Notes under the pieces: model-generated
Seen by the model: only the letters and a program-made list of their open reading frames with translations
The model's database searches: none
Told to the model about the DNA's origin: nothing
Translations under genes and position numbers: made by a program
Assembly: GCA_023150845.1 (NCBI GenBank)
Contig: JAKLKD010000070.1
Coordinates: 1 to 63,260, forward strand
DNA length: 63,260 bases
Direction: 5' to 3'
DNA from: Myxococcota bacterium
GTDB taxonomy: Bacteria; Myxococcota_A; UBA796; CAJQPC01
In this document: in pieces, positions 43,155-57,026 of the stretch
Layout: each line of letters starts with the position of its first letter
How positions within the stretch are numbered: position 1 is the first letter of the stretch

Positions 43155-45017
43155 ATGCCCGAGCTCGTCGCCCTGTTACGCCTCGTCAGGGAGTCCACCT
43201 CTCCCATCGGCGCCTTCGCGCTCCGGGGCGGGACGTCGTTTGAGGAGCTCGGCAGGAACCCCGACGCGGAGGGCTGCGGCCAGGCCCCGGCGCGGGCAGA
43301 CCTCTACGGCGCTCAACCCTTCACGACGATCCTGGAGCGGCGCGGCCAAGAGAGCCTGAGCGCGGGGCGGGCCGTCACCTTTGAGCACCGCTGCGTCGGC
43401 CCCGGTGGCGCGCAGCGCTGGTGCCAGTTGACGGTGCAGCCCGTTGGCCCCCAACGATGTATGTGGCTCGCCGCCGACATCACCCCGGCGAAGGTCGAGG
43501 AGGTGAGCCGCCTCACCTACGCCGAGCGCCTGGACTACGCCGTGCGAGGCATGAACGACGGCATCTGGGACTGGCGGGTGGACACGGGTGAGGTCTACTT
43601 CTCGCCGCGCTGGTGCGAGATGCTCGGCTACGCCCCGGACGAGGTCCCGCAGCACCTCAGCTCGTGGAGCGAGAGCGTCCACCCCGACGACCTACCCTGG
43701 GTGCTCGTCGAGGTGGAGCGCCACTTCGCCCGGCAGACCGAACGTTACGAGACCACACACCGGGTGCGGACGAAGTCCGGTGAGTGGCGCTGGATCCTCG
43801 ATCGGGGGGAGGTGGTCCTGTGGTCGTCGGACGGGCGGCCCCTGCGCATGGTCGGCGCGCACACCGACGTCACCGGCCAGAAGCACATCGAGCACCAGCT
43901 CCGCGACCAAGAGCGGCGCACGGCGGCGCTGATGCAGCTCGCGCCGGTGGGCATCTACCAAACCGACGAGGCGGGCAACTGCATCTTCGTCAACGAGGCC
44001 TGGTGCAACATCGCCGGGCTGAGCCCGGAGGAGGCCCTCGGGAGCGGCTGGGCCCGGGCGATTCACCCCGACGACCTCGAGGCCGTGGGCGCGGAGTGGC
44101 AACGCTTCGTCACCGAGGGCGGCCTCTTTCACCTCAGCTTCCGCTTCGTCGATAAGAACGGCGTGAGCCGCCACGTGCTCTCCCGGGCCTCTCGTCTCAT
44201 CAATGACCACGGCGTCCCCGACGGGACCGTCGGCACGGTCATCGACATCACCAGCGAGCGGGCCCAGGAGGAGGCGCTCACCCAGCAGCGCGCCCAGATG
44301 GCCGCCTCCTCACGCCTCGCCGCCTTGGGGGAGATGGCCGGCGGTCTCGCCCATGAGCTGAACACCCCCCTCGCCGTGATGCTCCTGACCGTCGAGCAGC
44401 TCCAGGCCCAGGAGCGTGAGGGGCAGCTCCCTCGGGAGCGCCTGATGCGCGGCCTGTCCCGCTTAGAGAGCACCCTCGGCCGGGTCACCCGCATCATGAA
44501 GAGCCTGCGCAACTTCGCCCGAGACGGCGAAGGGGACGCCCCGGAGCCGGTGCGTTTGGGCGGCTTCATCGAGGACGTGCTGTACTTCTGCCGCGAGCGT
44601 ATCCTCAACCACGGCATCCGGCTGAACGTGCAGATCCCCGCGCCGGAGGCCGAGGCGCGCCTCGGCACGACCCAGCTCGCCCAGGTGCTCCTGAACCTCC
44701 TGAACAACGCCCACGACGCCGTGGTCGGGCAAGAGCTCGCCTGGATTGAGGTCTCCGCCGAGGTCGTCGGCGACGGGGTGCGGTTCGCGGTGACCGACAG
44801 CGGCCCCGGCATCCGGGAGGATCTCCGCGCCCGCATCTTTGAGCCCTTCTTCACGACCCGCCCCGTCGGCCAAGGCACCGGCCTCGGCTTGCCGATCTCC
44901 AAGGGCCTCATCGAGCGGATGGGCGGGCGCCTGCGCCTGGACGTCGGCGCCCCGAGCACCCGGTTTGTGGTGGAGCTGCCCGGCGTGTTGACGACCCAGG
45001 GTGAGCCGAGCGCCTGA
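43155..45017 (+). CDS. PAS-domain sensor histidine kinase
   Basis: The 620-aa cytoplasmic kinase has a diverged N-terminal sensor region, two PAS domains (about 125-245 and 255-370, with WDWRVDTGEVYFSPRW and VGIYQTDEAGNCIFVNEAW), and a HisKA domain with His400 in GGLAHELNTPLAVM. The HATPase domain has QVLLNLLNNAHDAV, DSGPGI and GTGLGLPISKG. The two-residue neighbour of His is a Leu-Asn pair, usual for this class. A single-domain response regulator follows 42 bp later, probably its phospho-partner. The stimulus is unknown; the PAS domains might bind haem, flavin or a small ligand. Confidence 0.93.
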   Translation: MPELVALLRLVRESTSPIGAFALRGGTSFEELGRNPDAEGCGQAPARADLYGAQPFTTILERRGQESLSAGRAVTFEHRCVGPGGAQRWCQLTVQPVGPQRCMWLAADITPAKVEEVSRLTYAERLDYAVRGMNDGIWDWRVDTGEVYFSPRWCEMLGYAPDEVPQHLSSWSESVHPDDLPWVLVEVERHFARQTERYETTHRVRTKSGEWRWILDRGEVVLWSSDGRPLRMVGAHTDVTGQKHIEHQLRDQERRTAALMQLAPVGIYQTDEAGNCIFVNEAWCNIAGLSPEEALGSGWARAIHPDDLEAVGAEWQRFVTEGGLFHLSFRFVDKNGVSRHVLSRASRLINDHGVPDGTVGTVIDITSERAQEEALTQQRAQMAASSRLAALGEMAGGLAHELNTPLAVMLLTVEQLQAQEREGQLPRERLMRGLSRLESTLGRVTRIMKSLRNFARDGEGDAPEPVRLGGFIEDVLYFCRERILNHGIRLNVQIPAPEAEARLGTTQLAQVLLNLLNNAHDAVVGQELAWIEVSAEVVGDGVRFAVTDSGPGIREDLRARIFEPFFTTRPVGQGTGLGLPISKGLIERMGGRLRLDVGAPSTRFVVELPGVLTTQGEPSA

Positions 45018-45059
45018 GCGCGTTACTCCACTTTTCGTCCTGAGGACCGGACGAGGCCC

Positions 45060-45488
45060 ATGTTCACCGATCCACCCTTCGCTGGCTGCGTGGTGCTCGT
45101 CGTAGACGACGACGCCGACATGCGTGAGGTGATGAGCGGCGTGCTCGAAGACCTCGGGCTCGCGGTCATCGAGGCCAAGGATGGGCTCGAGGCCATCGCG
45201 CTCGTGCGGGCCAACCCCGGCCTCTGCCTCATCCTCAGCGATCTCAAGATGCCGCGCTGCGACGGCCTGGAGCTCGCCCGGGCGGTGAAGGAGCTTCCTT
45301 GGCCGACCAAGCCGCCCTTCGTGATCGTGAGCGGGTACAGCGATCCGGCCTTGGGGCGCGCCGAGGAGCTGAACATCCTGTCGATCCTGCGGAAGCCCTT
45401 CCGGCTGGAGGAGCTGCGCGCACTCGTGGCGCGGAGCATTCGGCCTCTGGGCTCGACGCCTGAGCCCGTCCCCGGTAGTCTAGACTGA
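45060..45488 (+). CDS. Single-domain response regulator (CheY-like)
   Basis: The 142-aa receiver domain has an acidic pocket (VVDDDAD, 15-20), phospho-acceptor Asp61 (LILSDLKMP), Ser91 and Lys112 (LRKPF). There is no output domain. It follows the sensor kinase by 42 bp on the same strand and likely takes its phosphate to pass to an unlinked phosphotransferase or target. A membrane protein gene and an AlkB-like gene follow closely. Confidence 0.93.
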   Translation: MFTDPPFAGCVVLVVDDDADMREVMSGVLEDLGLAVIEAKDGLEAIALVRANPGLCLILSDLKMPRCDGLELARAVKELPWPTKPPFVIVSGYSDPALGRAEELNILSILRKPFRLEELRALVARSIRPLGSTPEPVPGSLD

Positions 45489-45526
45489 GCGTGGCGCCGC
45501 ACGACGCGCCCCCTGGAGCCGCCGCG

Positions 45527-46021
45527 ATGCGAGTGATCGGCCCCCTCTTCGCCGTCTTGGCCTTGGGCCTCGTGACCTGGTACCTCTGGCTCAACCGCCT
45601 GCCGCCCTTCGACGCCCTGCCGGAGCCTGTGCCCGTCACCATCCAGTCCGTCACGATGGAGCATGACGGCGTGCGCATCGAGGGCACGGCCCACTTCCCG
45701 GTGCGTATCCGCTACGTCGAGCCCGCGCGTCTGGGCCGCCCCGAGCAGACCCGCTACCTCTTCCCGCTGCTCCCGCTGCGCGACACCATGAGCCGCCGGG
45801 TGCGGGTCATCATCTCCTCCGCCCGTGAGCCCGAGCACCTCGTCTCCTACGCCGACCTCACCATCGACGGCTTCGCCCGGCCCGGCGGCGCCTTCTTGAA
45901 CGGCCCGGCCATCGACGCCCTCCGCCGCGCTGGCTACACCCTAGAGGACGACCTGATCGTGATCGAGGAGTACCCGCCGCCCGCCGGTCGCCCGATGGAG
46001 GCCGCCCCCGCGGCGCCGTGA
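45527..46021 (+). CDS. Small membrane-anchored protein, function unknown
   Basis: The 164-aa product has one N-terminal transmembrane segment (VIGPLFAVLALGLVTWYLWL) followed by an extracytoplasmic domain of about 135 residues. No known domain is recognised. ATG 45527 has GGAG eight bases upstream; an upstream GTG at 45491 in the same frame lacks one. The AlkB-like gene starts inside its stop codon (GTGA overlap), so the two are coupled. Confidence 0.78.
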   Translation: MRVIGPLFAVLALGLVTWYLWLNRLPPFDALPEPVPVTIQSVTMEHDGVRIEGTAHFPVRIRYVEPARLGRPEQTRYLFPLLPLRDTMSRRVRVIISSAREPEHLVSYADLTIDGFARPGGAFLNGPAIDALRRAGYTLEDDLIVIEEYPPPAGRPMEAAPAAP

Positions 46022-46578
46022 CGCCCCCCGGCTACGCCCTCACCCCGGGCTTCTTGAGCGAGGCCGAGGCCGACGCGCTCCTGGCCAGCTTGCTCTACGA
46101 GACCCCTTGGGAGCGCCACGTCTTTCGGCTCTACGGGCGGGCCCTGCCGATGCCCCGGCAGATCGCCTGGGTCGGTGAGCGGCCCTACGCCTACTCCGGC
46201 CTCGTCCACCCGCCCGCGCCTTGGCCGCCGAGCTTGGCCGCGCTCCTGCCCCGGCTCCAGGCGGCCTGCGGCCAGCCCTTCAACGGCGCGCTGCTGAACC
46301 GCTACGACGGCGGACAAGACAGCATGGGCTGGCACACCGACGACGACCACGCGCCCTTGGCCTTGGGCGGCCTCGCCTCCTTGAGCCTCGGCGCCACCCG
46401 CCGCCTGCTCGTGCGCCCCCGAGGCGGCGGCCCCTCCACACCCATCGAGCTCCCCCACGGCAGCCTCCTGTGGATGAGCCCCGAGAGCCAGCAGCACACC
46501 CAGCACGCCTTGCCCAAGACCGCGCGGCCGGTGGGGGTGCGGGTGAACGTGACCTGGCGGTGGGTGGGGGAGGGTTAG
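46018..46578 (+). CDS. AlkB-like Fe(II)/2-oxoglutarate dioxygenase
   Basis: The 186-aa enzyme matches the AlkB/ALKBH family, which oxidatively removes alkyl lesions from DNA or RNA. Visible are NRYDGGQDSMGWHTDDD with iron ligands His106 and Asp108, the third ligand His163 (TQHALPKT), and RVNVTWR (175-181), where the arginines bind 2-oxoglutarate. The GTG start overlaps the previous gene by 4 bp. The stop overlaps the stop of the convergent gene at 46575. Repair of alkylated nucleic acid is the likely role, though lipid or protein targets occur in the family. Confidence 0.92.
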   Translation: MTPPGYALTPGFLSEAEADALLASLLYETPWERHVFRLYGRALPMPRQIAWVGERPYAYSGLVHPPAPWPPSLAALLPRLQAACGQPFNGALLNRYDGGQDSMGWHTDDDHAPLALGGLASLSLGATRRLLVRPRGGGPSTPIELPHGSLLWMSPESQQHTQHALPKTARPVGVRVNVTWRWVGEG

Positions 46579-48920
46579 AAGGGGATGTCTTCGTCGTCGG
46601 GTAGGGGACCAGTGGGTACAGAGCGGCCGTAGCCGCCGAACGGGCGTTGGTGCTTCGTCGGTGGGGCATCGAATCCGCGGAGCGTGCGCCACTTCTCGCT
46701 GAGGATTGGGTGCTCAAAGCTCAACCGGCGCTCACGCTCGACGAGCCACCCTTGCTCGATGAGCTCAGAGAGCGCCGTCCGCACGAGCAAGGTCGTGCGT
46801 CCCTCTTCCAGCAGAGCACTCGTGACCTCCCCCCATGACATCCCATCGTCGTGCTTGGACAGCGCATCAAGCGCCTCGCGGCGGACGTTGAGGAGTGGGT
46901 CATCTTGCCAACTTGCCTCCAACAGTGGCTCAAGCATCTTCGAGCGCGCCTGGAGCGTGGTCGGGTCTCCTCGCTTCGCCACTAACCTGAGCACGACGTC
47001 GGGGATGCCCTCTGGGTTGTTCAGCTCTGGATTGATGCGAATCTCGTTCACAAGTTGATGCACGAGGTTCGGGATCCCGGCGCTGCTCGTTGTGATCGCG
47101 AGCACGAGCTCGTTGACGCGGGAGGCGCCAACACCCTCCAGCAGACGAGTAGCTAAGGTTTGTGCGTCGTTAGCGCTTAGAGGCGGCACAGCGACTGTAT
47201 GCAGATGAGCCCACCAATCTGCTGCTGCTGCGTCTTGGTCTGAGATGTCATCTGGTGAGCCCAGCGCGACCACGAACCGAAGGCGCTCGCGTTGGATGAG
47301 CGTCGACGTAATATGGCGCAGCGCGGCACCTCTCTGAGGTTGGTCGAGCGCCACTATATGGTCAAGCAGGACGATGAACCCCGCCTCCGGGATCGGCTCC
47401 TCCAAAAGCCCTGTGAGCCAGCGCCTAAGCTGGTCCTCTGTGACCCCACGCAGGTCCAGCTTCTCCCGCCGCTCCCCCGCGACGGGCACCTCCAGCCCGT
47501 TCATCACAGACGACACCCCGCGCCCCTTCGGGCCGAGCAGGCACACGCTGCGGTGCTCTAGCTCGGCGTTGATCTGGGCGATGAGCTTCTCTCGCCCGAC
47601 GAGCTCCGAGGCTGGCGCTGGGCGGCCCACGCGCAGGGGCAGCGCCCGCTGCTGTGCCTGTGGTCGGTGCGCGGGGTGAATCGGCAGCACCACCTCAAAG
47701 TAAGTGCGGGTGTCCTCCTCAAAGTTAAACTTGGGTGGCGGGTTCCCGTTCTTCTCCATGGCGCGGCGGATCTTCTTGATGCCGCTTCGGCGGGCCTCGG
47801 CGAGCTTGGCGAGCTTGAGGAGCTCGCCGACGCGACGGTTTCTCGCTACGACCGGCGGGAGGTCGCCCGTCTCTAAGTCTTTGAGCGCGAGTCCAGGCGG
47901 GGGGCCGGGGTAGCTCGTGATGGTCATGCGGTCGGGGTACAGCTCGATCTTGATGGGGTCTGCGTAGACCGGGTCATAACCCCGGTGGTGAACAGCGTTT
48001 ACGACGGCCTCCTCCACGGCGGCGAATGGCCAAGCGACGTCCCGGTCAGCCTCGGCGCGGTCGTCGTGTTTCTGCACGCGGGTCGTGTTCAGGCTCTTGA
48101 GGATCTCCAAGGCTTGGGAGAGCAAGAACGGCAGGTTGCCGCGCAGCGTCTTCTCAGAGAGCTTGTCGCCGTCGTCATTCACCTGCACGATCTCGATTTG
48201 GGCGCCGTGGAAACGGTGCTGGGGCTCGGTGGTGAAGAACAGCACGGCGGCGTTCAGCGGGGACTCATGCCCGTTCACGCGCTGAAGCAGGCTCTCGTCA
48301 CGCAGCCGCTGCTCGACGCTCTTGTCTTCATCAAGGCTGAGGCCCGCTTGGTACAAGTACGAGTTCAGCAGGTCCGGGTTGATCGCGCTCGCGGTCAGGT
48401 CACGGCAGGGTTGCGCGTCAAATGGCACCCGCTGACTGACCTCCTCAAGCTGTCGCAGAAGCTCCCCTTTGGCGAGCTTGGTCTCGGCGCCGACACGGAC
48501 GTAGGGCGCCCCCGTCGTGCCTCTCTCAAGGCGGTCGGGAACAGCGTAGGGGCGGTTTGGTCCAGCCTGACAGCGGATCACCAGCACATCGCGGCCATCC
48601 ACTTGATCCGTGAAGATCCCAGGCACATAGTCGGGGGTCACCCATCTGCTGATGTGGCCGAGAATCTCTTTCTGGATGAGCTCCAGCTCTTCGGTGCGTA
48701 GGCCGATCGGAGGCAAGACGGCCTTGCCACCCTCCTCAGCGACGCCCAACACGATGTAGCCGCCGTTCTGGTTGTGCAGGTCGTTCGCGAACGCGCAGAC
48801 CGTCTTGAGGATCGCGCCCTTGGTGCGCTCATCCCAGCCGACCTTAAATTCAAGCCGGAACGACTCGACGCGGTTGTCTTTGAGGAGCTGCTCTGCGGAC
48901 AGGAGCGAAGGGAGGTGCAT
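46575..48920 (-). CDS. AlbA-HATPase-P-loop protein with SSB-like C-terminal tip
   Basis: The 781-aa protein has an N-terminal Schlafen/AlbA_2-type DNA-binding domain (about 17-155: ESFRLEFKVGW, AFANDLHNQNGGYIVLGV), then a GHKL-type HATPase region of the RecG-like AlbA family (about 295-345: AAVEEAVVNAVHHRGYDP). A P-loop-like segment follows (GPKGRGVSS, about 464-472, with VLLDH as possible Walker B) and a winged-helix-like C-terminal region. It ends in a flexible tail and DDEDIPF. That tip matches the acidic C-terminus of single-stranded DNA-binding protein (DDDIPF), which recruits repair enzymes. ATG 48920 (GTG 48923 also possible) lies a few bases after the ImuA-like gene, so both sit under one SOS-type promoter. 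Base composition is less GC-rich than neighbours, suggesting acquisition. Confidence 0.85.
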   Translation of the reverse strand: MHLPSLLSAEQLLKDNRVESFRLEFKVGWDERTKGAILKTVCAFANDLHNQNGGYIVLGVAEEGGKAVLPPIGLRTEELELIQKEILGHISRWVTPDYVPGIFTDQVDGRDVLVIRCQAGPNRPYAVPDRLERGTTGAPYVRVGAETKLAKGELLRQLEEVSQRVPFDAQPCRDLTASAINPDLLNSYLYQAGLSLDEDKSVEQRLRDESLLQRVNGHESPLNAAVLFFTTEPQHRFHGAQIEIVQVNDDGDKLSEKTLRGNLPFLLSQALEILKSLNTTRVQKHDDRAEADRDVAWPFAAVEEAVVNAVHHRGYDPVYADPIKIELYPDRMTITSYPGPPPGLALKDLETGDLPPVVARNRRVGELLKLAKLAEARRSGIKKIRRAMEKNGNPPPKFNFEEDTRTYFEVVLPIHPAHRPQAQQRALPLRVGRPAPASELVGREKLIAQINAELEHRSVCLLGPKGRGVSSVMNGLEVPVAGERREKLDLRGVTEDQLRRWLTGLLEEPIPEAGFIVLLDHIVALDQPQRGAALRHITSTLIQRERLRFVVALGSPDDISDQDAAAADWWAHLHTVAVPPLSANDAQTLATRLLEGVGASRVNELVLAITTSSAGIPNLVHQLVNEIRINPELNNPEGIPDVVLRLVAKRGDPTTLQARSKMLEPLLEASWQDDPLLNVRREALDALSKHDDGMSWGEVTSALLEEGRTTLLVRTALSELIEQGWLVERERRLSFEHPILSEKWRTLRGFDAPPTKHQRPFGGYGRSVPTGPLPDDEDIPF

Positions 48921-48929
48921 CACCCAAGG

Positions 48930-49550
48930 TTATCCCAGATCGCCCCCCACCTCCAGCCGCCGCCCTTGGGCGTCGCCTTGGGCACGGCGCAGGAGCACGG
49001 AGAGGCGATCGCCGCGGCGGCCGAGGGCCTGGGCCCGCAGGCTCGCCGGGAGGTGGAGGTCAACAGACTCGTTGACGATGAACAAGGCGCACTCGCCGCG
49101 CTCGGCGGCGCGCTCCAGCCGCGCCCCGGCTTTGCCCAGGCGGGGGGGATCGAGGAGCACGACGAGGGGGAAAGCGCCGGACTGGGCGAGCTGCTCCGTG
49201 GCCCAGGCGGCCTGCTCCGCGGCGGGCTGCAAGAGGAGCAGGCGCTCCCAGCGCAGGCCCACGAGGCCCGGAGGGTAGAGCCGACCCAGCGGATCCACCA
49301 CGGCCACGGGGGTTTCTTGACGTGTCAACAAAGCTGCTGCGGGGGTCCACAGCCCGTTTCGGCCGCTCCCGGGGCGCCCGCTCAGCTCGATGAGCCCCGG
49401 ACGAGGCCAACGCGGCAGATCCTTGAGGCCCGAGGGGAGATCGGCGTGGCGCTCGGGCAGGGTCGCGCCGGTGCTCAGCCGCGGCGCCCCCCGCAGGGAC
49501 GACACGGCGGCCTGGAGCTGGCTGAGCACGACGCGGCGGTCGGGGTCCAT
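48930..49550 (-). CDS. ImuA/RecA-like protein
   Basis: The 206-aa protein resembles ImuA, the RecA-like partner in translesion mutagenesis cassettes: RLSTGATLPERHADLPSGLK, PGLIELSGRPGSGRNG and PLVVLLDPPRLG. The P-loop is degenerate: GRPGSGRN (58-65) lacks the usual Lys and Ser/Thr, so ATP hydrolysis is doubtful, as in some ImuA proteins. imuB and dnaE2, its usual partners, are absent; an AlbA-ATPase gene follows instead. GAGG lies six bases before ATG 49550, and a LexA-type palindrome with sigma70-like promoter lies directly upstream, which supports a DNA-damage role. A SulA-like member of the same superfamily is the alternative. Confidence 0.78.
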   Translation of the reverse strand: MDPDRRVVLSQLQAAVSSLRGAPRLSTGATLPERHADLPSGLKDLPRWPRPGLIELSGRPGSGRNGLWTPAAALLTRQETPVAVVDPLGRLYPPGLVGLRWERLLLLQPAAEQAAWATEQLAQSGAFPLVVLLDPPRLGKAGARLERAAERGECALFIVNESVDLHLPASLRAQALGRRGDRLSVLLRRAQGDAQGRRLEVGGDLG

Positions 49551-49559
49551 CCTGAACCT

Positions 49560-49575
49560 CTGAACGGACGTTCAG
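49560..49575. promoter_or_regulatory. LexA-type SOS operator
   Basis: CTGAAC-GGAC-GTTCAG is a palindrome with perfect 6-bp arms and the GAAC-N4-GTTC core used by Gram-positive LexA. It also agrees at most positions with the Myxococcus LexA box as I remember it. It lies 10 bp upstream of the ImuA-like ATG and over the predicted start site. A third half-site CTGAAC (49552-49557) lies beside it, 8 bp out of register. Confidence 0.8.
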
Positions 49576-49602
49576 GTTAGCACAGGCGCGGCCCCGAGAC
49601 AA
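49574..49602 (-). promoter_or_regulatory. Sigma70-like promoter of the SOS operon
   Basis: On the minus strand -35 TTGTCT (49602-49597) and -10 TAACCT (49579-49574) are separated by exactly 17 bp. The predicted start falls near 49567, inside the LexA palindrome, so repressor binding would block initiation. The untranslated leader would be about 17 nt. Confidence 0.65.
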
Positions 49603-52927: not shown

Positions 52928-54871
52928 ATGCGCGCGATGCCCAACCTCCTCCTTATGCTCTTCGCCCTCGGCGCCTGCAAAGACGCCGATGACGGCGTCG
53001 GCAGTGACTCTGTGCCCTCCGATGACACCGGCGGTGAGGTCGTAGACGACACCGGCGGTAGTGACGACACCGGCTCGCAGGAGGAGATCGACGCGGACGG
53101 CGACGGCGTGCGCGCTGATGAGGACTGCGACGACAACAACGCCGCGGTCTACCCCGGCGCCGAGGAGAGCTGTGACGGGCTCGACAACGACTGTGACGGG
53201 TCGGTCGATGACGGCGCGGGCACGGAGTGGTACACCGACTCGGACGGCGACGGCTACGGCGACAGCGCCGCGGTGACCATCGCCTGCGACCAGCCCGAGG
53301 GCGCCGTGGCTCAAGGGGATGACTGTGACGACGACGACGCGGCGTTTAACCCCGGCGCCGCCGAGGTGGACTGCGCCGATCCCAACGACTACAACTGTGA
53401 TGGATCGGTAGGCTTCAACGACGCGGACGGCGACGGCTTCGCGGCCTGTGAGGAGTGTAACGACAGCGACGCCGCGGTGAGCCCCTCCGCCGAGGAGATC
53501 TGCGACGACCAAGACAACGACTGTGACGGATCCGCCGACGAGGGCGTCACCAGCACCTACTACCAGGACAAAGACGCCGACGGTTACGGGGACGCGGACT
53601 TCTCCGTCGCGGCCTGTGAGGCCCCGGCGGGCTACGCGGCCATCGCTGAAGACTGCGACGACGGCGTGACCGCGGTGAACCCCGGCGCCCAGGAGGTCTG
53701 CAGCGGCGTTGACGAGGACTGCGACGGACTCATCGACGACGCCGACGAGAGCCTCGACGCCAGCTCCGGCGCCACCTCGTACACCGACGCGGACGGCGAC
53801 GGCTACGGCGACCCGAGCGCGGCGAGCCAGAGCTGCGAGACCCCTGAAGGTGCGGTCACCAACAGCGAGGACTGCGACGACGCCGACGGCGCCGTGAGCC
53901 CCGACGCCGAGGAGGTCTGTGACGGCCTCGACAACGACTGTGACGGCGTCTCCGACGAGGCCGGGGCGACGGGCGAGGCGACCTGGTACAGCGACAGCGA
54001 CGGCGACGGCTACGGCGACGCGTCGAGCGCCACGAGCGCCTGTGAGGCCCCCCCGGGCGCGGTCTCCAACGCCGAGGACTGCGACGACGGCAGCGCCTCG
54101 GTGAGCCCCGACGCCGCCGAGGTCTGCGATGGCGACGACAACAACTGCGACGGCGTGACCGACACCGACGCCACCGACCGGAAGACCTACTACGCCGACG
54201 CGGACGGCGACGGTACGGGTGACCCCTCGGTCAGCGCGCTCTCTTGCTCCCGGCCTTCGGGCTACATCGGCAACAAGAAGGACTGCGACGACGCCGACGC
54301 CGCGGTCTACACCGGGGCCACTGAAGTCTGTGACGACGCCGACAACGACTGCGACACGGTCATCGACGAGGGCTTCGACGCGGACAGCGACGGCATCACC
54401 GATTGCAACGAGATCAGCTACACCGTCGTGTTTTACGGCACCGGGGATGACGACTGGGACGGTTATGTAGACGGCTCCTTCGCCTTGGGCGACGGCGGCT
54501 GGAGCAGCGTCGAGAGCGTCACCATGACCCTTGACTCCGGCGACCACACCTTCGCGGCCTATGTCTCCGACACCGGCGCGGCCATCGCCGGGTTCTTGGC
54601 GGCGGTGTCCATCGACGGCACGGTCACCTACGTCACCGGCGGCGCCGGGGACTGGCGGATGGTCGACAACACCTCGGCGAGCGACTGGACCGACGTCGAC
54701 TTCGACGACTCGGCCTGGAGCTCCCCGCTGCTCTGCGCGTCGAGCCAGGTCACGGCTTATTGGGGCGGCGCCCCGGCGACGCTGCGGGGCCTCGGCGCCC
54801 AGTGGGTCTGGCACCAGAGCTGCACGTCCTTGGGCGACAGCTACTACCGGCTCAACTTCAGCCTGCCCTAG
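52928..54871 (+). CDS. MopE-like repeat lipoprotein with C-terminal jelly-roll-like domain
   Basis: The 647-aa lipoprotein has lipobox FALGAC (Cys17), a Thr/Ser/Asp-rich tether (SVPSDDTGGEVVDDTGG), then about eight aspartate-rich units (DADGDGVRADEDCDDNNAAV, SCDGLDNDCDGS, YTDSDGDGYGD). Each unit has paired cysteines and calcium-loop-like DxDxDG motifs. The C-terminal 150 residues differ from the paralogue at 54924 and look like a beta-sandwich (DHTFAAYVSDTGAAIAGF, AQWVWHQS). AAGGA lies seven bases before the ATG. It is probably a secreted or surface calcium- or copper-binding adhesin-like protein. Confidence 0.9.
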   Translation: MRAMPNLLLMLFALGACKDADDGVGSDSVPSDDTGGEVVDDTGGSDDTGSQEEIDADGDGVRADEDCDDNNAAVYPGAEESCDGLDNDCDGSVDDGAGTEWYTDSDGDGYGDSAAVTIACDQPEGAVAQGDDCDDDDAAFNPGAAEVDCADPNDYNCDGSVGFNDADGDGFAACEECNDSDAAVSPSAEEICDDQDNDCDGSADEGVTSTYYQDKDADGYGDADFSVAACEAPAGYAAIAEDCDDGVTAVNPGAQEVCSGVDEDCDGLIDDADESLDASSGATSYTDADGDGYGDPSAASQSCETPEGAVTNSEDCDDADGAVSPDAEEVCDGLDNDCDGVSDEAGATGEATWYSDSDGDGYGDASSATSACEAPPGAVSNAEDCDDGSASVSPDAAEVCDGDDNNCDGVTDTDATDRKTYYADADGDGTGDPSVSALSCSRPSGYIGNKKDCDDADAAVYTGATEVCDDADNDCDTVIDEGFDADSDGITDCNEISYTVVFYGTGDDDWDGYVDGSFALGDGGWSSVESVTMTLDSGDHTFAAYVSDTGAAIAGFLAAVSIDGTVTYVTGGAGDWRMVDNTSASDWTDVDFDDSAWSSPLLCASSQVTAYWGGAPATLRGLGAQWVWHQSCTSLGDSYYRLNFSLP

Positions 54872-54923
54872 CCCCGCCTGTGCTACTCTGGGGGCTCACT
54901 CCACAAGACGATGGGGCCCCTCG

Positions 54924-57026
54924 ATGACAAACCTCCGCTTCGCCCTCCTCTTTTTATTGGCCGCCGCCGCGGGCTGCAAAGACTCCGGCGACGAGGTCTC
55001 CACCGACTCCGTGCCCGTCGATGACTCCTCGCCGGTCGAGGAGCTCGACGCGGACGGGGACGGCGTGCCCGCCGCGGAGGACTGCGACGACAACAACGCC
55101 GCGGTGTCCCCGGACGCCGAGGAGCTCTGTGACGGCGTCGACAACGACTGTGACGGCTCGGTGGACGAGGAGGTCGGCACGGCCTGGTACGCCGACGCCG
55201 ACGCCGACGGCTACGGGGACCCGGGCGCGGAGACCATCGCCTGTGAGGCGCCGGAGGGCGCCGTCGCCGTGGGCGGGGACTGCGACGACGCCGACCCGGC
55301 CTACAACCCCGGCGCCCCCGAGACGGACTGCGCTGATCCCAACGACTACAACTGTGACGGATCCGTAGGCTACAACGACGCCGACGGAGACGGCTTCGCC
55401 GCCTGTGAGGAGTGTGACGATGGCGACGCCGCGGTGAACCCCAGCGCCGCCGAGGTCTGCGACGAGCGCGACAACAACTGCGACGGCAGCACCGACGAGG
55501 GGGTCACGACGACCTTCTACCAGGACCGCGACGCCGACGGCTACGGCGACGACGACTTCGCCGCCGCGGCCTGCGAGGCCCCCGAAGGCTACGCCCTCGT
55601 CGGCGGGGACTGCGACGATGACGACCTCGGCGTGAACCCCGGCGCGCAGGAGGTCTGCAGCGGCCTCGACGAGGACTGCGACGGGCTCATCGACGACGAG
55701 GATGACAGCCTCGACCTCGGGACGGCGACGACGACCTACACCGACACCGACGGCGACGGCTACGGGGACGCGGACGGGGCCACCCTGAGCTGCGACGCGC
55801 CGCCGGGCAACGTCGACAACCGGGACGACTGCGACGACGGCGACGCCGAGGTGAGCCCCGCGGGGACCGAGCTCTGCGACGGCCTCGACAACAACTGCGA
55901 CGGCGCCGTGGATGAGGGCAGCGCCGCGGACGCCTCGACCTGGTACGCCGACGCCGACGCCGACGGCTACGGCGACCCCAGCGCCACGAGCGTCGCCTGC
56001 GACCAGCCCACGGGCAGCGTCGGCGACGCGAAGGACTGTGATGACGCCGACGCCGCGGTGAACCCCGCCGCCGCGGAGATCTGCGACGGCGACGACAACA
56101 ACTGCGACGGCGTGACCGACAGCGACGCGATCGACCTCAAGACCTACTACGCCGACGCCGACGCCGACGGCTATGGCGACAAGTCTGTCACGTCGAAGGC
56201 CTGCTCCCGGCCCTCGGGCACCATCGGCAACAACAAGGACTGTGACGACACCGACGCGACGACCTACACCGGCGCCACGGAGCTGTGTGACGACGTCGAC
56301 AACGACTGCGACGGCGACGTAGACGACGGCGTGCTCGGCAGCGACGTGGCCTGCGCGGCGACCACCTGCCTCGACATCCTCGCCGACCAGCCCTCGGCCA
56401 CAGACGGCGTCTACACGCTTGAGCCCGTGAGCGGCACCGTGCTCGATCTCTACTGTGACATGACGACCGACGGCGGCGGCTGGACCTTGGCGTTCGTGAA
56501 GAACTCCGTGGACTACGACAGCTACTCCGACGCGGGCGGCACCTACGAGGACACGAGCCACCTGCAGGTCCACCCCAAGACGGCCTCGTCCTCGTCTTCG
56601 GCTTATGGCGGCTGGATCAACATCAACGAGTTCACCTTCACGACCCTGCGCATCGCGTCCTACATCGGGGGCGCCCAGACCTACATGTCGAACGACATCA
56701 AGGCGAGCGAGCTGCGCATCGACTTCGGTCAGAACGGTTACCTGCTCTACAACGACTCAAACGGCTACTACTGGTGCGCGGGCGCGGCGAGCTACACCGA
56801 CTCCGGCTCGGGCCAGGTCAACCGGCCCTCGGGCGCGCCCACCGACTGCAAGGGCCACGGCAGCCTGGGCTCGGGCTGGGACTTCTCGACGAGCACCAGC
56901 GTCAACAGCGGCCTGACCATGTGTGGTGTAGACGCGGTCTCACGCTGGATGCACGGCGCCTACGGGTCGAGCTCTTGGTACACCTACCCCAGCGCGGGCG
57001 GGGCCCAGGCGCTCTGGCTGCGCTGA
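54924..57026 (+). CDS. MopE-like repeat lipoprotein with fibrinogen-like C-terminal domain
   Basis: The 700-aa lipoprotein has lipobox AAAAGC (Cys18), a short tether, and an array of aspartate-rich units closely matching the gene at 52928 (ETDCADPNDYNCDGSVGYND). The C-terminal 230 residues start with CLDILADQPSATDGVYTL and YCDMTTDGGGWTLAF, the hallmark of fibrinogen-related recognition domains that often bind sugars or acetylated groups. This points to surface recognition or adhesion. ATG 54924 has only a weak ribosome-binding site. The N-terminal arrays of this and the 52928 protein are nearly interchangeable while the C-terminal domains differ, as if swapped by recombination. Confidence 0.9.
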   Translation: MTNLRFALLFLLAAAAGCKDSGDEVSTDSVPVDDSSPVEELDADGDGVPAAEDCDDNNAAVSPDAEELCDGVDNDCDGSVDEEVGTAWYADADADGYGDPGAETIACEAPEGAVAVGGDCDDADPAYNPGAPETDCADPNDYNCDGSVGYNDADGDGFAACEECDDGDAAVNPSAAEVCDERDNNCDGSTDEGVTTTFYQDRDADGYGDDDFAAAACEAPEGYALVGGDCDDDDLGVNPGAQEVCSGLDEDCDGLIDDEDDSLDLGTATTTYTDTDGDGYGDADGATLSCDAPPGNVDNRDDCDDGDAEVSPAGTELCDGLDNNCDGAVDEGSAADASTWYADADADGYGDPSATSVACDQPTGSVGDAKDCDDADAAVNPAAAEICDGDDNNCDGVTDSDAIDLKTYYADADADGYGDKSVTSKACSRPSGTIGNNKDCDDTDATTYTGATELCDDVDNDCDGDVDDGVLGSDVACAATTCLDILADQPSATDGVYTLEPVSGTVLDLYCDMTTDGGGWTLAFVKNSVDYDSYSDAGGTYEDTSHLQVHPKTASSSSSAYGGWININEFTFTTLRIASYIGGAQTYMSNDIKASELRIDFGQNGYLLYNDSNGYYWCAGAASYTDSGSGQVNRPSGAPTDCKGHGSLGSGWDFSTSTSVNSGLTMCGVDAVSRWMHGAYGSSSWYTYPSAGGAQALWLR

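Follow-up and report, generated by a model that had tools for sequence, protein, structure and literature searches.

A solo imuA gene with a LexA-type operator and a downstream AlbA_2-HATPase gene in a Myxococcota genome carrying imuB-dnaE2 elsewhere

The imuA-imuB-dnaE2 cassette for translesion synthesis (Abella 2004; Galhardo 2005, cited in PMC5285347 and PMC12926913) is divided between loci in some bacteria. The M. tuberculosis cassette is described as split into imuA'-imuB and dnaE2 (PMC6511836), and that of M. xanthus as split into imuA-imuB and dnaE2 (PMC12288472). In the portions of the literature on split cassettes that were accessible to us, no cassette is described as interrupted between imuA and imuB. 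Within the ImuA family, the ImuA1/2 groups are reported to be without Walker motifs (PMC12926913). For M. xanthus, the SOS-box pattern CTRHAMRYBYGTTCAGS has been published and used experimentally, and the same source describes direct repression of pafBC by LexA (PMC9705874).

Here we analyze a locus of a Myxococcota bacterium (GenBank assembly GCA_023150845.1) within a window of 63,260 nucleotides, which is the whole analyzed stretch of contig JAKLKD010000070.1. The locus consists of imuA preceded by a LexA-type operator and followed within a few base pairs by an AlbA_2-HATPase gene (albA2). Very probably it represents the part with imuA of a translesion-synthesis cassette that is split in two and controlled by LexA, and albA2 was positioned behind imuA later.

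The imuA gene and its operator

imuA (48930..49550, minus strand) encodes a RecA-like protein of 206 aa, which shows homology to the NCBIfam ImuA model (NF033429) over the RecA-like core (E 2e-15, residues 31-185). The score of 57 bits is below the curated cut-off of 150 bits, as are the 72-88 bits of orthologues from the same order whose genes belong to complete cassettes. The protein matches RecA weakly, and ImuA is single-copy in the genome, the second match of the search being RecA itself. A GxPGSGR motif stands where the Walker A GK[ST] would be expected, and all 19 of the 19 aligned ImuA orthologues carry Arg at the position of the Walker A Lys of RecA. Orthologues outside the genus are 33-49% identical, and one is present in 51 of 58 relatives. 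The model match and the orthology together bear out the original prediction that the first gene is ImuA/RecA-like.

The predicted LexA-type operator, CTGAACGTCCGTTCAG, is a perfect palindrome of the form CTGAAC-N4-GTTCAG (49560..49575, read 49575-49560 on the minus strand) and is separated from the imuA start by a gap of 9 bp. It overlaps the -10 region of a promoter-like element, TTGTCT-17-TAACCT (49574..49602, minus strand), so that the palindrome over a promoter named in the original prediction is indeed present. An automatic sigma-70 scan, which applies stricter hexamer rules, did not report TTGTCT-17-TAACCT. From base composition, the number of perfect boxes expected is about 0.001 for the window and 0.14 for the genome of 7.13 Mb; exactly two were found in the genome, one before imuA and the other before imuB. 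The imuA box agrees with the M. xanthus SOS pattern CTRHAMRYBYGTTCAGS at 16 of 17 positions. In the second species of the genus, the operator has the same bases except one in the spacer, and the spacing TTGT-N19-TAACCT is retained with a diverged spacer sequence. The block comprising the -10, the operator and the leader is 28/29 identical between the two species, and the sequence upstream of it has diverged. Of the 41 imuA loci examined across the order, 33 have a box, with no more than two mismatches, a short distance upstream of the gene. The operator that overlaps the promoter is thus conserved beyond the genus as well as shared with imuB.

A genome-wide box search also revealed boxes with a single mismatch, at the recN and ruvX genes and in front of a gene for a WYL-domain regulator. 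Because the near-matches sit at these genes, the motif is supported as the SOS box of the host. Two observations count against the SOS reading: the promoter of lexA itself has a weak box with four mismatches to the M. xanthus pattern, and no box with up to three mismatches was detected upstream of recA. lexA is single-copy in the genome and encodes both the DNA-binding and the protease domains. The SOS-type control proposed at the outset is supported by the box shared with imuB and by the near-matches at the other genes, which suggests that LexA would repress the imuA unit and that DNA damage would induce it. As a separate observation, the WYL-domain regulator has a PafC-like HTH, and two LexA-like boxes, 22 bp apart, lie upstream of it (L009:1501-1538, equivalent to C217:66926-66963).

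The split cassette and its distribution

The second perfect box (C190:7974-7989) is located 10 bp upstream of imuB on another contig. ImuB (520 aa) contains the Y-family IMS and IMS_C domains, and it is directly followed by DnaE2 (1048 aa), which matches the error-prone polymerase model with 1337 bits. Since the only other perfect box of the genome precedes imuB-dnaE2 on a different contig, we regard the cassette as split into imuA and imuB-dnaE2. A canonical contiguous imuA-imuB-dnaE2 operon is not found in this genome; imuA is followed by albA2, and imuB-dnaE2 is on contig C190. The original prediction held that the polymerase partners of ImuA had been replaced by the AlbA_2 ATPase. This does not hold, because imuB-dnaE2 was found in the same genome behind the same operator, and the AlbA_2 gene, rather than substituting for the polymerase genes, was added at the level of the genus. 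The gene content suggests that ImuA from the solo locus would join ImuB and DnaE2 from the second LexA-controlled operon after DNA damage and that the three proteins would form the usual error-prone mutasome. An ungapped BLOSUM62 comparison of ImuB with the genome's own RecA, in which a RecA-NT-like ImuA-docking motif was sought, gave a score that is not significant.

The split state is common to four families of the order (f1, f3, f5 and f6), in which imuA lies apart from imuB. Among the imuB loci retrieved from the four families, most have dnaE2 next to imuB and most have a box in front; the genes downstream of the solo imuA are varied and unrelated. In families f2 and f4, imuA is located directly before imuB with few exceptions, and dnaE2 comes next in most f2 loci; the association of imuA with imuB and dnaE2 therefore appears as direct linkage in these two families and as a separate locus here. 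The solo and cassette states are strongly clustered on the imuA tree, which requires 3 changes where shuffled labels require about 11. Because the genomes are incomplete MAGs, statements of absence rest on many genomes and not on any one. In the split genomes, imuA and imuB are on different contigs, and most loci were found with a query sequence from the source genome, which biases the sample to close orthologues. At the sequence level, these comparisons establish that imuA can be parted from imuB and dnaE2 with both halves of the cassette retaining the same LexA-type operator, and this state is seen in several families of a single Myxococcota order.

Isolated imuA genes also occur in the families that otherwise keep the cassette (L081 and L121 in G032, and L090 in G056). 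In G032, imuB and dnaE2 are separated as well: they occupy opposite strands of a single contig, each with a box of its own.

The AlbA_2-HATPase gene and its place behind imuA

albA2 (46575..48923, minus strand) is an intact frame of 782 aa from a GTG or 781 aa from an ATG (48920). It starts 6 bp (GTG) or 9 bp (ATG) past the imuA stop in the same direction, and its product has the architecture AlbA_2-HATPase-(AAA/STAND-like)-winged-helix. The Schlafen SLFN_AlbA_2 domain (48471..48866, minus strand; E 8.7e-17) matches PF04326 with 62 bits against a gathering score of 25.3. It begins with an ExxxxExK motif, E20-S-F-R-L-E25-F-K27, and E20, E25 and K27 are invariant in five homologues. The HATPase_c_4 domain (47685..47957, minus strand; E 2.8e-15) is a GHKL domain like that at the RecG C-terminus, in which E305 and N309 of the N-box are invariant. 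The third domain is weakly AAA/STAND-like, with an nSTAND1 match (E 0.014 with the whole protein and 0.005 with the C-terminus alone) below the cut-off. Its degenerate P-loop, GPKGRGVSS (47508..47534, minus strand), is without the Walker A lysine; GRGVSS is kept in all three full-length homologues, and the catalytic lysine is missing in each. The region does not show the Walker A GxxxxGK[ST] with Walker B of STAND/AAA NTPases, and an active third ATPase domain is doubtful because the P-loop lacks the catalytic lysine. The original description as a 781-aa AlbA_2/HATPase/P-loop gene 6-9 bp behind imuA therefore stands for the AlbA_2 domain, the HATPase domain and the spacing, and is only partly right in calling the P-loop an ATPase. 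The winged helix is predicted from secondary structure in a model of low confidence: the AlphaFold model, built with 7 sequences, has a mean pLDDT of 51 and is too poor for use. A PDB sequence search with the protein gave no match.

Two other features lie in the window. On the plus strand, 43155-46578 holds a tightly packed cluster of a PAS-PAS histidine kinase, a response regulator, a hypothetical gene and an AlkB-type 2OG-Fe(II) dioxygenase, which meets the albA2 stop in convergent orientation, overlapping it by 4 bp, and is possibly a two-component-linked alkylation-repair operon. Two large open frames at 52928-57026 (plus strand) consist of repeated MopE-like DxDGDG/CDDxDxDCDG motifs, which are known from Myxococcota surface proteins.

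The imuA-albA2 pair is present in two MAGs, which represent two species of one genus: the source genome and Myxococcota bacterium MAG.430 (JAKLKE010000247.1). Both have the same amine-oxidase gene upstream of the pair, the imuA-albA2 junction is conserved, and the proteins are 93% (ImuA) and 79% (AlbA_2) identical. Both genes are under purifying selection, as judged from the dN/dS values between the two genomes (NG86; 0.13 for imuA and about 0.21 for albA2). A decaying passenger is not supported by the dN/dS of 0.21 and the open frame of albA2, and an assembly artefact is unlikely given two MAGs with the same gene order but diverged sequence. The pair was not found outside the genus in searches of the order (63 genomes) or of a phylum sample (379 genomes). 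It is thus neither unique to one genome, since the second MAG carries it, nor widespread, being absent from the other genera with an orthologous imuA. The survey put forward with the original prediction accordingly finds the neighborhood conserved in a second species but restricted to one genus. Outside the genus, the only full-length AlbA_2 homologue in these searches is 52% identical and comes from elsewhere in the phylum (G354); it stands alone, with no box and no ImuA nearby. Any AlbA_2-HATPase match was obtained in 19 of the 379 phylum-sample genomes, with N-terminal relatives bearing other C-termini scattered among them, and the stretches fetched around these other loci showed no ImuA and no box near the gene. 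Matches in viral and plasmid searches were restricted to N-terminal AlbA_2-HATPase relatives. The source genome has a second AlbA_2-HATPase gene (contig C111; L124:9034-11148), in which a TPR-like C-terminus replaces the AAA/STAND-like region.

Because the pair is limited to the genus and the G354 homologue is solitary and without a box, albA2 most likely entered the SOS regulon by its position, through landing behind imuA. The most economical reading of the sequences is that imuA was already solo when, in the ancestor of the genus, an AlbA_2-HATPase-STAND-like gene was inserted a few bases downstream of it; read-through from the imuA promoter would then have made this gene damage-inducible. 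Co-transcription of the two genes is what this arrangement would predict, and a freed imuA promoter may thereby bring a gene unrelated to the cassette under SOS control. It is unlikely that albA2 is instead transcribed mainly from a promoter of its own inside imuA, outside SOS control and adjacent to imuA by coincidence. The solitary AlbA_2-HATPase genes without boxes would fit such a promoter, as would the terminator-like hairpins inside imuA, which occur at about the level of shuffled sequences; the gap of 6-9 bp and the junction conserved in the second species argue against it, and no sigma-70-like promoter was found in the region by a scan that has low power in 70% GC DNA.

The near-abutting arrangement, conserved within the genus, could reflect that ImuA and the AlbA_2 protein are linked in function. 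In its strong form, the two would be a new damage-induced functional unit, in which the AlbA_2 protein acts, for example, on ImuA- or RecA-bound DNA or regulates the mutasome. Such a unit would be consistent with the conservation of leader and junction between the two species, with the purifying selection on both genes and with their co-control by one putative LexA box. We nevertheless give it a low probability, considering that the pair is absent from all other genera with an orthologous imuA, that the full-length homologue of G354 lacks a nearby ImuA and a box, and that the usual partners of ImuA are present in the same genome. Most likely, the AlbA_2 protein would be a nucleic-acid-binding stress or defence regulator independent of the mutasome, and albA2 would be kept by purifying selection as a regulator that acts apart from it; this is our best guess.

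Comparison with Schlafen proteins, AlbA_2-HATPase proteins and known cassettes

The AlbA_2 domain invites comparison with the vertebrate Schlafens SLFN11 and SLFN14, which share an AlbA_2-type domain with ExxxxExK. AlbA_2 domains commonly contain ExxxxExK and are for the most part annotated as DNA-binding regulators, and this counts against reading the protein as an SOS-inducible Schlafen-type RNase effector, brought under LexA by position, that would cleave tRNA or mRNA for translation shutdown or phage defence as a bacterial parallel of human SLFN11. The lysine-less C-terminal P-loop and the poor structure model weigh in the same direction. The intact motif, which is the SLFN metal-site motif of the Schlafen nuclease site (PMC12215978), and the C-terminal AAA/STAND-like and winged-helix region, a possible sensor, favor the RNase. 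So do the partial PADLOC matches of the AlbA_2/HATPase half to Argonaute-associated models and the reported occurrence of AlbA_2 domains fused to or beside prokaryotic Argonautes (PMC6299218). PADLOC returned neither a full-length model nor a complete system of known anti-phage defence, and no Argonaute was identified among the neighboring genes examined. On balance, an RNase effector seems distinctly improbable. Still less probable is the broader proposal that the damage response of this genus co-induces ImuA and a Schlafen-type ribonuclease with a STAND-like C-terminus, so that mutagenic repair and RNA-cleavage growth arrest or defence would start from one LexA promoter, paralleling SLFN11. 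If the protein were an active Schlafen-type enzyme, the locus would provide a bacterial setting for the study of damage-induced Schlafen action. Unlike SLFN11 and SLFN14, the AlbA_2 protein has no SF1 helicase C-terminus.

AlbA_2-HATPase_c_4 proteins (PF04326 and PF13749) are often annotated as RNA-binding or ATP-binding. The protein described here resembles them over the N-terminal 420 aa, with both domains over the Pfam cut-offs. Where these relatives end in a short tail, winged-helix-like or TPR-like, the protein here continues with an AAA/STAND-like region, whose P-loop is degenerate, and a winged helix; it further differs by the place of its gene behind imuA.

The Arg-for-Lys substitution in the ImuA orthologues recalls the ImuA1/2 groups without Walker motifs as they are described in PMC12926913. 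As in M. tuberculosis and M. xanthus, the cassette genes lie at separate loci; however, the break in those species is before dnaE2, whereas here it lies between imuA and imuB and dnaE2 stays with imuB. Compared with the classic imuA-imuB-dnaE2 cassette, all three genes are present in this genome with a LexA-type box before each transcription unit, but imuA is on another contig and an unrelated gene lies behind it.
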